Part shown: positions 6,186 through 11,657 of the stretch, one piece after another
Layout: each line of letters starts with the position of its first letter
Position numbering within the stretch: the first letter of the stretch is position 1
From: Opitutaceae bacterium
Lineage (GTDB): Bacteria > Verrucomicrobiota > Verrucomicrobiia > Opitutales > Opitutaceae
Direction: 5' to 3'
NCBI GenBank assembly: GCA_023269585.1
Contig: JAHFTC010000036.1
Span: 1-34,827 of the forward strand
DNA: 34,827 nucleotides
Made by a program: the position numbers and the translations under genes
The notes under the pieces: model-generated
What the model saw: only the letters and a program-made list of their open reading frames with translations
Told to the model about the DNA's origin: nothing
The model's database searches: none

Positions 6186-6482
6186 CTAGTCCATCAAGCG
6201 ATGCTTCCAGTAGCCTGGCCGGCGCTTGAGATGCATGATCGCCACGATCCATACCCGGTCGGACTGCGCCACATAAAGGACACCGTAGGGGAATACTGTT
6301 CCAAGAATCCGCCGTACCGGCGCCTCGAACAGCCGGTACCGCTGCGGATGGTGGCAGGCCTCATTCAACAACGCCACCACCTCGTCGTAAAAACGCCCGC
6401 CCAAATCCGGGCTGATCTCGGCGTAGTGCCGCACCGCCTCCAGAAACTCCGCATCGGCTTCCGGATGGAGCGTCGGATTCAC
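6186..6482 (-). CDS. ParE/RelE-family toxin
   Basis: Toxin of a type II toxin-antitoxin module. The 98-residue protein shows the ParE/RelE plan: an N-terminal HPEADAEFLEAVRHYAEIS helix pair, then DLGGRFYDEVVALL, then the core RYRLFEAPVRRILGTVFPYGVLYV and a C-terminal strand VWIVAIMHLKRRPGYWKHR. The conserved R-x-x-x-x-x-x-P-Y-x-[IVL]-x-Y segment is clear. Whether it acts on ribosome-bound mRNA (RelE) or gyrase (ParE) cannot be told from sequence; the pairing with an Unstab_antitox protein favours the ParE-like group. It lies downstream of the antitoxin gene and overlaps it by 4 bp, the normal order for such modules. Confidence 0.88.
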   Translation of the reverse strand: MNPTLHPEADAEFLEAVRHYAEISPDLGGRFYDEVVALLNEACHHPQRYRLFEAPVRRILGTVFPYGVLYVAQSDRVWIVAIMHLKRRPGYWKHRLMD

Positions 6483-6724
6483 CGGCCGATCAACTTCCGC
6501 GCCTTGGCCAACGTTTCCTCCATCGGAATCCCCCGCACCTGGCCGCCTTCCAACTCGGCGAATCGGCGTTGCACTTCATTTCGCCACGCCCCTTCGACCG
6601 TCGCCTCCACCCCGCCATGCTTGGCGAGCAGAATGCGATCCACCAACTCGGCTACCGCATCGGCCGGCCACTGGCGCGTTTCCTCGACGATCTGCTCTAC
6701 GGTGATCGGCATGCTCGGCACCAT
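6479..6724 (-). CDS. Addiction-module antitoxin (Unstab_antitox type)
   Basis: Small acidic antitoxin of the PF09720/TIGR02574 addiction module type, 81 residues from this start. It begins MVPSMPITVEQIVEETRQWP and has the family helix DAVAELVDRILLAKHG. The C-terminal toxin-binding part is WRNEVQRRFAELEGGQVRG followed by IPMEETLAKARKLI. The open frame reaches back to 6766, but those extra residues are not family-like; ATG codons at 6724 and 6712 are the plausible starts. It precedes and overlaps the toxin gene by 4 bp, so the two would be co-expressed and probably autoregulated, although I see no clear operator. Confidence 0.87.
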   Translation of the reverse strand: MVPSMPITVEQIVEETRQWPADAVAELVDRILLAKHGGVEATVEGAWRNEVQRRFAELEGGQVRGIPMEETLAKARKLIGR

Positions 6725-6936
6725 AGACCGGACGTTGTTCAGTTCAACGCCGGTCTTCGCCCTCACGCCCTCGCTTCGCCCCTCACGCCTCCCGCCTCAG
6801 CCGCATCTCGTTGGCGGAGCCCAGGCAGTGTTCCTCGCAGCGCCGGCTTGTCGGCCTCCGCACAAATCGCCTAAGAAACTCCCGCCTCGCGCGTCTTCCT
6901 GCAAGACGCCCACCATCACCCCAACCCCAACCCGGC

Positions 6937-7458
6937 ATGAGCCCGCCCCCCGATGAACACGACGCCTTCGTGCGCGAGGCCATCCGCCAACACGAGCGGC
7001 CCCTCCTACGCTATGTCGCCCACCTGCTCGCCGACCACGACCGCGCGCGCGACCTCGTGCAGGACACGTTCGTCAAACTCTGCCGCCAGCCCGTCGCCGA
7101 GGTCGAAGGCCACGTCGCCGAATGGCTCTTCACCGTCGCCCGCCGCGCCGCACTCGACGTATTGCGCAAGGAGGGCCGCATGAACCGTTTCGCCGAAGGC
7201 CAGGCCGAACGCCTCGTCGCCGCCGATCCCACCCCGGCCGCCCAGGCCGAGACCCGCGAATCCGCCGCCCAGGCGCTCTCGCTCCTCCACCGCCTCCCGC
7301 ACAACCAGCAGGAGGTCGTCCGCCTCAAGTTTCAGGAGGGCTTCAGCTACCAGGAGATCGCCGCCATCACCCACCTCACGATGGGCAACGTCGGTTTCCT
7401 CCTCCACACCGCCCTCGCCACCCTGCGCCGCGAAATGACGCGCCCCAGCGCCGTCTGA
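6937..7458 (+). CDS. ECF-family RNA polymerase sigma factor
   Basis: Sigma-70 family protein with regions 2 and 4 only, 173 residues. Region 2 includes LLRYVAHLLADHDRARDLVQ and DTFVKLCRQP, followed by the region 2.3/2.4 helix VAEWLFTVARRAALDVLRKE. Region 4 starts at LHRLPHNQQEVVRLKFQEG and contains the helix-turn-helix FSYQEIAAITHLTMGNVGFL. The ATG at 6937 gives the usual N-terminus; the open frame extends upstream to 6811 with no family similarity. The next gene starts 18 bp downstream and encodes a single-pass membrane protein with an anti-sigma-like N-terminus, which suggests that the two form a sigma/anti-sigma pair. Confidence 0.92.
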   Translation: MSPPPDEHDAFVREAIRQHERPLLRYVAHLLADHDRARDLVQDTFVKLCRQPVAEVEGHVAEWLFTVARRAALDVLRKEGRMNRFAEGQAERLVAADPTPAAQAETRESAAQALSLLHRLPHNQQEVVRLKFQEGFSYQEIAAITHLTMGNVGFLLHTALATLRREMTRPSAV

Positions 7459-7476: not shown

Positions 7477-8988
7477 ATGCCCAAGATCGACCAGAACGAC
7501 CCGCGCCTCACCGCCTACGCCTTGGACGAGATGTCACCGGCCGAGCGCGCCGCGTTCGAACCCCTCCTCCGCGACGATCCCGCCGCTCGCGCCCTCGTCG
7601 ACGACCTCGGCCGCATCGCCGACCTCCTCGCCGACGCCCTCGCCGCCGAGCCGCTGCCCGCGCGCACCGTCGTGCTCCCCGCCGCCCGCCGGCCCCATTG
7701 GCTGCGCCGCCTTGTCGCCGACAGTTGGACACTCTGGGTGCCGCTCGGCGCCGTCGCGTGTTTCGCGCTCTTCTTCTGGCGCGTATACCTCCCCGGCCTC
7801 GACACGCAGCAGCCCGCCGCTCCCGTCGTGGCGACCGGCCCCTCCGGCGTCCCGCCCGGCTACACTGCCGTCGAGGTCGCCACCACCACCGGCGAAGGCT
7901 CCGCTGTCGGTGGCGACACCGCCGCACCCCGCAGCCCCCTCCCTTCCGCGCCCACCGGGCTCACCGCGGCGTCGACCATCGTCAAGACCGGCCATTTCCT
8001 CACCGCCCGCGAGAACCCGTCGTCGCAGTTCGCCGTCAACGTGGGCACCGCGGCCTACGCCGATGTGCGCCGCAGCCTCGAGGCCGGCGAACGCCCGCCC
8101 ACCACCCTCGTGCGCATCGAGGAACTGGTGAACGCCTTCCCCTACCGTTACCCGCGGCCCGCCGGTGCCGACGCCCTCGCCCTCGCCACCGAGATGCACT
8201 CCGCCCCCTGGGCCAAGGACCACCTGCTCGTGCGCATCGCCCTGCAAGGGCGCGACACGCCCGCCCCCGCGACCACCGCCGCCACTGCGCCCACTGGCGC
8301 CACCCCGCCCGCCCCCGCCGGCGATCGGCCGAGCCACGCCGCCCGCGAGCTCCTCGCGGCCGACGCCGCCGCTGCGATCCGCTCCCTCGCCGCCCGCGAC
8401 GTGAAGGTGCAGGTCGACTTCAACCCGGAGAAGGTCCTCGCGTACCGTCTCATCGGTTACGAGAACCGCCTCATCAAGAGCGGCGATGCCGAGCCGTCCT
8501 CCGACAACAACCTCGCCGCCGGCCGCGCGATCACCGCCCTCTACGAGGTCATCCCGCTCCCGCCGCCGGCCGCGGCGCCCCGGACCGTCGCCGCCCAGCC
8601 CGTCCCGCCGCCCACACCGGACCCGAGCGATACCGCCGCCTGGCTGACGGTGAAACTTCGCTACGCCGATCCCGCCACCGCCCGCAGCCGTTCCGTGATC
8701 GTGCCGCTGCACGCCGCCGTCGCCGCCGACACGCCGCCGGCCAGCCCTGACTTCCAGTTCGCCGCCGCCGTGGCCGGTTTCGGCCTCATCCTCCAGAACA
8801 ACCCCAACAGGGGCACCGCCAGCTGGGACATGGTGGAAGAGCTCGCCCAAGCCGGCTTGGCCGACGACACCACCGGCCGCCGCAAGGAGTTCGTCTCCCT
8901 CGTGAAGAAAGCCCGCGTCGTCGCCCCCGCCGAGACCACCGCACCCGCCATCACCCCGGCGCCGACAGAACCCGTCGCCACGCCCTGA
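7477..8988 (+). CDS. Membrane-anchored YfbK-like protein lacking the VWA domain, anti-sigma-like N-terminus
   Basis: The 503-residue product appears to be a domain rearrangement. Residues 1-60 (DPRLTAYALDEMSPAERAAFE onward, split by no stop) resemble the cytoplasmic N-terminus of ECF anti-sigma proteins. A single membrane segment follows at about 84-104. Residues about 184-260 match the domain that precedes the VWA domain in YfbK proteins: NVGTAAYADVRRSLEAGERP, then VRIEELVNAFPYRYP, then LLVRIALQG. Residues about 308-480 match the YfbK C-terminal domain (DUF3520): DVKVQVDFNPEKVLAYRLIG, then YENRLIK, ITALYEVIP, DFQFAAAVAGFGLILQ and RKEFVSLVKKA. The VWA domain of about 180 residues that normally lies between them, with its DxSxS metal site, is absent. 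A Pro/Ala/Thr linker of about 45 residues takes its place. The gene is probably co-transcribed with the sigma factor. Confidence 0.82.
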   Translation: MPKIDQNDPRLTAYALDEMSPAERAAFEPLLRDDPAARALVDDLGRIADLLADALAAEPLPARTVVLPAARRPHWLRRLVADSWTLWVPLGAVACFALFFWRVYLPGLDTQQPAAPVVATGPSGVPPGYTAVEVATTTGEGSAVGGDTAAPRSPLPSAPTGLTAASTIVKTGHFLTARENPSSQFAVNVGTAAYADVRRSLEAGERPPTTLVRIEELVNAFPYRYPRPAGADALALATEMHSAPWAKDHLLVRIALQGRDTPAPATTAATAPTGATPPAPAGDRPSHAARELLAADAAAAIRSLAARDVKVQVDFNPEKVLAYRLIGYENRLIKSGDAEPSSDNNLAAGRAITALYEVIPLPPPAAAPRTVAAQPVPPPTPDPSDTAAWLTVKLRYADPATARSRSVIVPLHAAVAADTPPASPDFQFAAAVAGFGLILQNNPNRGTASWDMVEELAQAGLADDTTGRRKEFVSLVKKARVVAPAETTAPAITPAPTEPVATP

Positions 8989-9014: not shown

Positions 9015-9105
9015 ATCGCAAAACGCGCCAGCGTTTCGTATCCCTCCGTAGCGGAACGCGTAAGCGTTTCGATCTTCCTTCGTAGCGGAACGCGTGAGCG
9101 TTTCA
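9015..9105 (+). repeat. REP-like hairpin repeat cluster B (three units)
   Basis: Units with the GTAG foot lie at 9048-9071 (loop GTAA) and 9082-9105 (loop GTGA, last foot base changed to A), starting 34 bp apart. A diverged copy lies at about 9015-9038 with arms AAACGC / GCGTTT around GCCA and no GTAG. The arm sequences are those of cluster A, and the 34-bp spacing is identical. Confidence 0.8.
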
Positions 9106-9462: not shown

Positions 9463-9714
9463 ATGCCCGCCGCCAAGCAGCCGGACCAGCCCAGTTTCGA
9501 GGACGCCCTCACCCGCCTGGAATCCATCGTCGACTCGATGGAGCAGGGCCAGGTGCCGCTCGCCGAGCTGCTCACCCGCTACGAGGAGGGCACCAAACTA
9601 CTGAAAGTCTGCGAAGCCCGGCTCAAGGACGCCGAGCTCAAGATCGACCAGCTCAAAAAGACCCGCGACACCGTCGCGCTCGAGAGCTTCAGCCCGGAGC
9701 GGGCCGAGCGTTGA
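9463..9714 (+). CDS. xseB: Exodeoxyribonuclease VII small subunit
   Basis: XseB, the small subunit that binds the coiled-coil region of XseA in exonuclease VII. The 83-residue protein is of normal length and contains the family core: SFEDALTRLESIVDSMEQGQ, then VPLAELLTRYEEGTKLLK, then CEARLKDAELKIDQL. A Lys/Gln/Pro-rich N-terminal extension of about ten residues precedes it. The gene ends at the start of dxs, an arrangement common in bacteria as xseB-ispA-dxs; here ispA is missing between the two. No xseA lies in the window. Confidence 0.93.
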   Translation: MPAAKQPDQPSFEDALTRLESIVDSMEQGQVPLAELLTRYEEGTKLLKVCEARLKDAELKIDQLKKTRDTVALESFSPERAER

Positions 9715-9725
9715 ATGCCCCGCCG

Positions 9726-11657
9726 ATGAGTGCCGCCCCGTCCGCCGGTTCACCGCCTCCGGCTTCCGCCGCCCGTCCCGTCAACCTGCTCGCCACCCTC
9801 CGCGGCCCGGCCGATGTGAAGGCGCTGCCGGCCGAGCATCTCCCGCTCCTCGCCGAGGAGATCCGCCGCGAGCTCATCCACGTCACCTCGCACAACGGCG
9901 GCCACCTCGGCCCCAATCTCGGCGTCGTCGAACTCACCATCGCGCTCCACCGCGTGTTCGACACCCCGCGCGACAAGTTCGTCTTCGACGTCAGCCATCA
10001 GGGCTATGTCCACAAACTTCTGACAGGCCGCACCGGCGAACCCTTCCGCCAGATCCGCAAGACCGGCGGCCTCTCCGGCTTCCTCAACCGCGCCGAGAGC
10101 CCGCACGACGCCTTCGGCGCGGGCCACGCCGGCACCGCCCTCTCCGCCGCCCTCGGCCTCGCCACCGCCCGCGATCTGCTCGGCACCAGCGAGCATGTCG
10201 TCGCCCTCTGCGGCGACGCCGCGTTCACCTGCGGCATCTCGATGGAGGCGCTCAACAACATCACCCACGCCACCAAGCGCCTCGTCGTCGTCCTCAACGA
10301 CAACGAATGGTCGATCTCCCGCAACGTGGGCGCGATGGCGAAGTACCTCAACGAGCTCTCCACCAACCCCACCTACAACCGGATCTACCACGACATCGAG
10401 GAGTTCTTCCGCAGCACCCCGCGCGGCGAGCGCCTCCACCAGATCTGGATGAAGTGGAAGCGCGAGACCAAGGACTTCTTCGTCGAGTCGTCGCTGTTCG
10501 AGAAATACGGTCTGCGCTACCTCGGCCCGATCGACGGCCACGACATCCCGCTCCTCGTCAAGAACCTCGAGTTCGCCAAACAGTCCGACGTCCCGATCGT
10601 CCTCCACGTCCTCACCAAGAAGGGCAAGGGCTACGACGTCGCCTCCGCCGCCCCCGAGCGCTTCCACGGCACGAGCCCGTTCGACATCGCCACCGGCAAC
10701 GGCCACTCCGCCGCCGGTGCGCCACCGGCTTTCCAGGACATCTTCGGCGAGGCCCTCGTGCGCGAGGCCCAGCTCGACAACCGCGTCGTCGGCATCACTG
10801 GCGCCATGCCCAGCGGCACCGGCCTCGCCGCCCTCGCCAAGGCCCTCCCCCGCCAGTTCTTCGACGTCGGCATCGCCGAGGAGCATGCCGTGCTCTTCGC
10901 CGCCGGCCTCGCCGCGCAGGGCCTCAAGCCCGTCGTCGCCATCTACTCGACCTTCCTCCAGCGCTCGTACGACCAGGTCGTCCACGACGTCTGTCTCCAG
11001 AAACTCCCCGTCGTCTTCTGCCTCGACCGCGCCGGTCTCTCGCCCAACGACGGCCCCACCCACCACGGGCTCTTCGACCTCTCCTACCTGCGCAACGTCC
11101 CCCACGCCGCCATCGCGCAACCCAAGGACGAGGACGAGATCGCCGACCTGCTCCACACCGCGCTCCGGCACCCCGGCCCCGTCTTCCTGCGCTACCCGCG
11201 CGGCGCCGGCCCGGGCGTGAAGCCCAAGGCGCGCGCCGCCGCGCTCCCCGTCGGCAAGGCCGAGGTCGTGCGCGCGGGCACCGCCCTCGCCCTCTGGGCG
11301 CTCGGCCCCTGGGTGCAGGATGCCCTCGCCCTCGCCGATCGCCTCAAGCTCGAGCTCGGACTCGACGCCGCCGTCGTCAACGCCCGCTGGGTCAAGCCGC
11401 TCGACCGCGAACTCCTCCTCGCCCACGCCCGCTCGATGCGCCTGCTCGTGACGTTGGAGGACAACGTCGCGATGGGCGGTTTCGGCAGCGCCGTGCTCGA
11501 GACCCTCAGCGACGCCGGTGTATCCACGCCGGTCGAACGCATCGCCTGGCCCGACGCATTCGTCGAGCACGGCAGCAGCGTCGACATCCTCCGCGCCGCC
11601 CACGGTCTCGACGCCGAGTCGCTCTTCCGCCGCCTCGCCGCCCGCCTGGCCCCGTAG
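9726..11657 (+). CDS. dxs: 1-deoxy-D-xylulose-5-phosphate synthase
   Basis: DXS condenses pyruvate and glyceraldehyde 3-phosphate, the first step of the MEP isoprenoid pathway; the product also feeds thiamine and pyridoxal synthesis. About 643 residues from the ATG at 9726. Visible motifs include VFDVSHQGYVHKLLTGR (the family histidine region), GHAGTALSAALGLA, and the thiamine-diphosphate site starting at GDAAFTCG and ending at VVLNDNEWSIS. Others are HVLTKKGKGYD, the transketolase pyrimidine-binding part DVGIAEEHAVLFAAGLA, and the C-terminal domain with TLEDNVAMGGFGSAVLE. A TTG at 9711, overlapping the xseB stop as TTGA, is an alternative coupled start. The gene is complete and ends before a convergent kinase gene. 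Confidence 0.95.
   Translation: MSAAPSAGSPPPASAARPVNLLATLRGPADVKALPAEHLPLLAEEIRRELIHVTSHNGGHLGPNLGVVELTIALHRVFDTPRDKFVFDVSHQGYVHKLLTGRTGEPFRQIRKTGGLSGFLNRAESPHDAFGAGHAGTALSAALGLATARDLLGTSEHVVALCGDAAFTCGISMEALNNITHATKRLVVVLNDNEWSISRNVGAMAKYLNELSTNPTYNRIYHDIEEFFRSTPRGERLHQIWMKWKRETKDFFVESSLFEKYGLRYLGPIDGHDIPLLVKNLEFAKQSDVPIVLHVLTKKGKGYDVASAAPERFHGTSPFDIATGNGHSAAGAPPAFQDIFGEALVREAQLDNRVVGITGAMPSGTGLAALAKALPRQFFDVGIAEEHAVLFAAGLAAQGLKPVVAIYSTFLQRSYDQVVHDVCLQKLPVVFCLDRAGLSPNDGPTHHGLFDLSYLRNVPHAAIAQPKDEDEIADLLHTALRHPGPVFLRYPRGAGPGVKPKARAAALPVGKAEVVRAGTALALWALGPWVQDALALADRLKLELGLDAAVVNARWVKPLDRELLLAHARSMRLLVTLEDNVAMGGFGSAVLETLSDAGVSTPVERIAWPDAFVEHGSSVDILRAAHGLDAESLFRRLAARLAP

Follow-up and report, generated by a model that had tools for sequence, protein, structure and literature searches.

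A VWA-less YfbK shell joined to an anti-sigma-like domain in an Opitutaceae bacterium, and repeated loss of the VWA domain from sigma-linked YfbK proteins

Introduction

YfbK proteins are widespread, and the openly licensed literature that we searched yielded no function for them. In the family as known from Escherichia coli, a VWA domain stands between two conserved flanks (PF12450-VWA-PF12034). The predicted structure of E. coli YfbK has the architecture of ArnB, in which a beta-sandwich is split by the VWA domain and followed by a helical domain, as in the core of Sec23/24 (PMC12852372).

Class I anti-sigma factors of ECF sigma factors, such as RskA and RslA, have one membrane helix between their N-terminal and extracytoplasmic parts, and their genes lie directly behind the gene of the sigma factor. 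Some of them have a zinc site in the N-terminal domain, while RskA lacks the zinc ligands. In the openly licensed (CC) full texts we found no description of a link between YfbK proteins and anti-sigma factors, and an earlier description elsewhere is possible.

Here we describe a 503-aa protein in which both YfbK flanks, jointly called the shell below, follow an anti-sigma-like N-terminus. It is encoded on contig JAHFTC010000036.1 of an Opitutaceae bacterium, of which a stretch of 34,827 nucleotides was analysed (the window).

Gene, domains, and neighborhood

Features of the locus are collected in Table 1.

Table 1. Coordinates of the fusion gene, its parts and its neighbors in the window.
Feature	Position	Strand	Remarks
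ECF sigma factor gene, probable partner	6937–7458	+	PF04542 E 7.5e-12; PF08281 E 7.2e-11; TIGR02937 E 3.4e-22
Anti-sigma/YfbK-shell fusion gene, VWA-less	7477–8988	+	503 aa; ATG start, TGA stop
Anti-sigma-like domain, residues 1–60, without zinc ligands	7477–7656	+	NCBIfam antisigma and family profile
Predicted membrane helix, residues 85–103	7729–7785	+	hydropathy 1.65 over 19 residues
PF12450, N-terminal YfbK flank, residues 170–253	7984–8235	+	E 2.7e-23
NVG, residues 188–190, at the DxD position of VWA-bearing relatives	8038–8046	+	
Junction in place of VWA	8236–8388	+	3' part from ~8335 aligns with the final VWA helix
PF12034 (YfbK_C), residues 305–480, strands and C-terminal helices	8389–8916	+	E 3.1e-41
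xseB and dxs, downstream; context only	9463–11657	+	names by sequence reading, without family scan

Both YfbK flanks are matched far over the cut-off and in the right order, as the first-pass annotation had proposed. The sigma gene, in which sigma70 regions 2 and 4 are matched, ends 18 bp before the ATG of the fusion gene, again in agreement with that annotation. What sets the protein apart from the YfbK family is the lack of the VWA domain with its metal site, the presence of an anti-sigma domain and a membrane helix, and the position behind an ECF sigma gene. In particular, Pfam found no VWA family in the ORF, and no DxSxS metal site is present between the flanks. They are separated by ∼50 residues, Pro/Ala-rich at first and then forming one helix, which is too few to fit a VWA fold. 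The segment had been described as a short Pro/Ala linker replacing the VWA; the VWA is indeed gone, but residues 287–308 align with its last helix and are not linker.

The N-terminus had been likened to an ECF anti-sigma factor with one membrane helix, and both parts of this claim find support. The NCBIfam "antisigma" model matches it with an E-value of 1.2e-9, which is under the curated cut-off, as are all anti-sigma matches of single proteins. A profile built from 17 N-termini of the family matches the solved structures 3hug (E 2.9e-4) and 4nqw, RskA (E 8.3e-4), from the PDB. We take 3hug to be RslA; the entry itself is labelled "probable conserved membrane protein". Residues 85–103 are the sole strong hydrophobic segment, and since four Lys/Arg residues precede it and none follow, the N-terminus is predicted to be inside. 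Similar to RskA and RslA, the protein thus combines an N-terminal domain related by profile with one predicted membrane helix and a gene directly behind that of an ECF sigma factor; unlike them, it has a YfbK shell as its extracytoplasmic part. The absence of zinc ligands distinguishes it from those class I factors that have a zinc site. Taken from the sequence, the 503-aa protein is probably a membrane-anchored off-switch for a stress-type ECF sigma factor.

Just 5' of the sigma gene, at 6186–6766 on the reverse strand, lie two small overlapping genes, resembling a ParE-type toxin and an antitoxin by sequence reading. On the 3' side of the fusion gene, positions 9025–9105 contain direct repeats with the form GGAACGCGT(A/G)AGCGTTTC. 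The order of xseB and dxs is the same in L001 and L036.

The sigma/anti-sigma-YfbK module in Verrucomicrobiota

Relatives were gathered over the phylum by protein search and with a Pfam model, and were read from their loci. We built our own models of the anti-sigma domain, the two flanks, the VWA domain, and the sigma factor, and determined the architectures of 117 YfbK proteins with them. An anti-sigma domain and a VWA domain were found together in 63 proteins, a VWA domain with the anti-sigma domain undetected in 35, and an anti-sigma domain without VWA in 19; these proportions are not population frequencies, as the sampling followed similarity to the window and to the C-terminal model, and some genomes contributed two proteins. 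The VWA calls were upheld by Pfam on ten examples. A same-strand ECF sigma gene is located upstream in 100 of the 117 cases, including all 19 VWA-less ones, and in most of the 117 proteins the VWA domain and its metal site are intact.

The first-pass annotation had seen a new type of module here. It was right on the anatomy and on the likely link to the sigma factor, and the VWA-less state is conserved. The fusion itself, however, is not supported as the novelty, as sigma/anti-sigma-YfbK modules with a VWA are found widely in the phylum. Forms without VWA are thus recurrent and derived variants of this module.

YfbK genes on plasmids of other phyla (enterobacteria, Nostoc, Bacteroides) match the flanks only; no match to the anti-sigma part was found on them. 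In L148 (G041:C1:1803500-1810500), a reverse-strand ORF of 935 aa encodes a one-piece sigma/anti-sigma/YfbK protein, in which a complete, VWA-bearing YfbK is combined with an ECF-sigma-like domain (residues 33–188), an anti-sigma-like stretch, and a membrane helix. In a congener of the window's source, a CRISPR-like array lies directly 5' of the sigma gene (L035:3813-4731); its 36-nt repeat occurs 13 times, spaced by 70–74 nt. No promoter motif was found 5' of the sigma genes; dyads are enriched there and were not taken as such a motif, as they appear to derive from a conserved divergent coding region.

Repeated loss of the VWA domain

The VWA domain in relatives of the 503-aa protein is ∼190 residues long, and its metal site reads DVSGS or similar in nearly all intact proteins, DVSGSM among them. 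Between fixed anchors, intact relatives have 196–199 residues, whereas VWA-less proteins have 7–55. In the window's genus, all three members that we found are VWA-less (the window, L035, and L001). Further VWA-less lineages are L037, L056, L070, L072, L075, and L082, as well as L128 from another family, and a VWA-less clade of nine (L136–L144) belongs to other families of the same class. The sigma-linked proteins of this clade have ∼490 residues and strongly diverged YfbK flanks, and several of the genomes also carry an intact copy. In addition, L051, L083, and L086 have a VWA-sized or shortened segment without the usual DxSxS metal site and are possible intermediates.

Within the order, six changes are needed both on the sigma tree and on the shell tree, the latter built with the VWA columns left out. 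A wider sigma tree requires eight changes, at least five of them forced by supported branches; L037 and L070 are adjacent in the tree and may represent one event. A single ancient loss is ruled out by AU tests, which rejected one origin within the order with p = 4e-5 for the sigma tree and p = 0.005 for the shell tree. The tree alone gives no direction, and the changes were read as losses because E. coli, Bacillota, and most of the phylum share the form with VWA.

The comparison of L072, from a one-contig genome, with its congener L099 shows a clean excision, with LKGRE joined to AGGTLVTIAKDVKIQVEFNP: the VWA is gone between LKGRE and AGGTLVTIAKD, and the alignment is close on either side. The borders in L056, L070, and L075 are similar to those in L072, and the window's clade retains part of the last VWA helix. 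Judged from these trees and alignments, the VWA domain has been lost repeatedly, at least six separate times in related bacteria, with precise domain borders. That related bacteria repeatedly lost the VWA and kept the rest suggests that the remaining shell still has a job.

Selection on the remaining shell

Between the window and L035, dN/dS is 0.24 in the PF12450 part, 0.37 in the PF12034 part, and 0.58 in the junction, while the anti-sigma domain has 0.37 and the sigma factor 0.235. The shell is therefore under purifying selection (0.24–0.37). As its values are somewhat over that of the sigma factor, and reach 0.52–0.54 against L001, the constraint may be relaxing.

Such relaxation is what one would expect if the protein were a working anti-sigma factor with an unused periplasmic remnant, the loss of VWA being the first step in the erosion of a lost sensory input. 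The divergence of the loops near the former VWA site, the strongly diverged flanks of the clade of nine, and the retention of a VWA without metal site in L051 and L083 agree with this. However, P244, W245, F315, R324, and E357 of the shell core have remained the same in those lineages of the order that lost the VWA, the reading frames are intact, also in one-contig genomes (L070, L072), and the nine-member VWA-less clade persists over several genera. We consider decay unlikely; as far as sensor and remnant can be weighed by sequence conservation, it favours a function of the shell after the loss of VWA.

Some shell residues changed with the loss. D188 and D190 are each altered in seven of nine VWA-less lineages, D190 mostly to Gly, and K310, L333, and G344 are altered in six. 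Of the VWA-bearing proteins, 84 of 95 have the DxD motif, vs. one of 19 VWA-less ones. The association holds in four of five well-supported independent pairs (sign test p ∼0.1, where five pairs cannot reach 0.05). We infer that the DxD motif may contact the VWA or otherwise serve it.

This co-loss bears on whether a separate VWA protein could dock on the shell and restore the function seen in intact relatives. On a different contig (G000:C139), the window's genome does encode a distant VWA-YfbK paralogue that is intact and sigma-linked, and several genomes with members of the L136–L144 clade likewise retain an intact copy. Still, 18 of the 19 proteins without VWA have lost DxD as well, which speaks against a docking surface having been kept, and we saw no free VWA gene next to the locus; supply in trans is thus quite improbable. 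Finally, an artefact of assembly or sequencing is ruled out, as is a deletion confined to this genome: the source is a draft assembly of 4.47 Mb in 216 contigs and orthologues with intact VWA exist, but the VWA-less state is common to the three genus members found, with an open frame in the two besides the window at 65% and 51% identity, and recurs in related and unrelated genomes, including one-contig genomes of other genera.

Fold of the shell

An AlphaFold model of the shell, obtained from three sequences only, has a mean pLDDT of 49 and pTM of 0.54. In this low-confidence model, both halves contribute strands, and three helices lie at the C-terminus. With Foldseek, the ArnB chains of 8s05 match it best, at a weak E-value of 4e-3. 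VIA-align gave weak matches to Sec23 and ArnB that span the junction (Z 3.5–4.2), in particular Sec23 at Z 4.2 and ArnB at Z 3.9 over 155 residues with rmsd 7.8; the ArnB entries are 8s05 and 5a8j. The top Z is 4.5, and since gamma-adaptin ear domains rank level with Sec23 or above it, the fold search alone is no demonstration of an ArnB/Sec23 fold. The model of an intact Clostridiales homologue (L002) has a pLDDT of 46, and viral contigs yielded no extra homologues for folding. Given the poor pLDDT and too few sequences, neither model served to decide on the fold or on where the DxD motif lies.

Together with the published YfbK fold, the weak matches fit the view that the VWA is inserted in a host fold, which stays complete when the VWA is removed. 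The shell is probably a split beta-sandwich similar to that of ArnB/Sec23, with a helical domain. ArnB/ArnE and the Sec23/Sec24 core differ in that they are cytoplasmic and carry the inserted VWA, whereas the shell of the 503-aa protein lacks it and is predicted to be periplasmic and sigma-linked.

Discussion

We regard it as likely that the 503-aa protein is a class I-type anti-sigma factor whose shell senses or scaffolds without VWA. This reading draws on the gene order, the domains, the precise and repeated loss of VWA, the selection on the shell, and the co-loss of DxD; the binding of the sigma factor, the topology of the folded shell, the signal, and the mechanism of release are its conjectural parts. 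The cytoplasmic N-terminal domain, similar to those of RskA and RslA and having no zinc site, would hold the sigma factor encoded upstream, and one helix would span the inner membrane. The periplasmic part would be the YfbK shell, with the two halves that flank the VWA in intact relatives forming one beta-sandwich and a helical region. As an inserted domain in this sandwich, similarly to ArnB and Sec23-24, the VWA could be removed without breaking the host fold. The shell would most likely take up an envelope signal or hold a partner and relay this via the helix, so that the sigma factor is released. In this sense the shell may regulate the sigma factor, as had been inferred in the first-pass annotation.

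A broader version is more tentative, and we hold it to be possible rather than likely. The VWA-less shell may by itself serve as a periplasmic sensor or relay that is coupled to ECF sigma factors throughout the Verrucomicrobiota, with the VWA as a removable cassette excised many times at the same borders, which would yield anti-sigma factors with a changed or metal-independent input.

With their link to ECF sigma factors across the phylum, YfbK proteins gain a testable role in transmembrane signalling. Moreover, the repeated removal of the VWA at precise borders is a natural experiment that separates the role of the VWA from that of the shell, and it shows which shell residues would depend on the VWA, namely the DxD motif, K310, and the loop 331–347.
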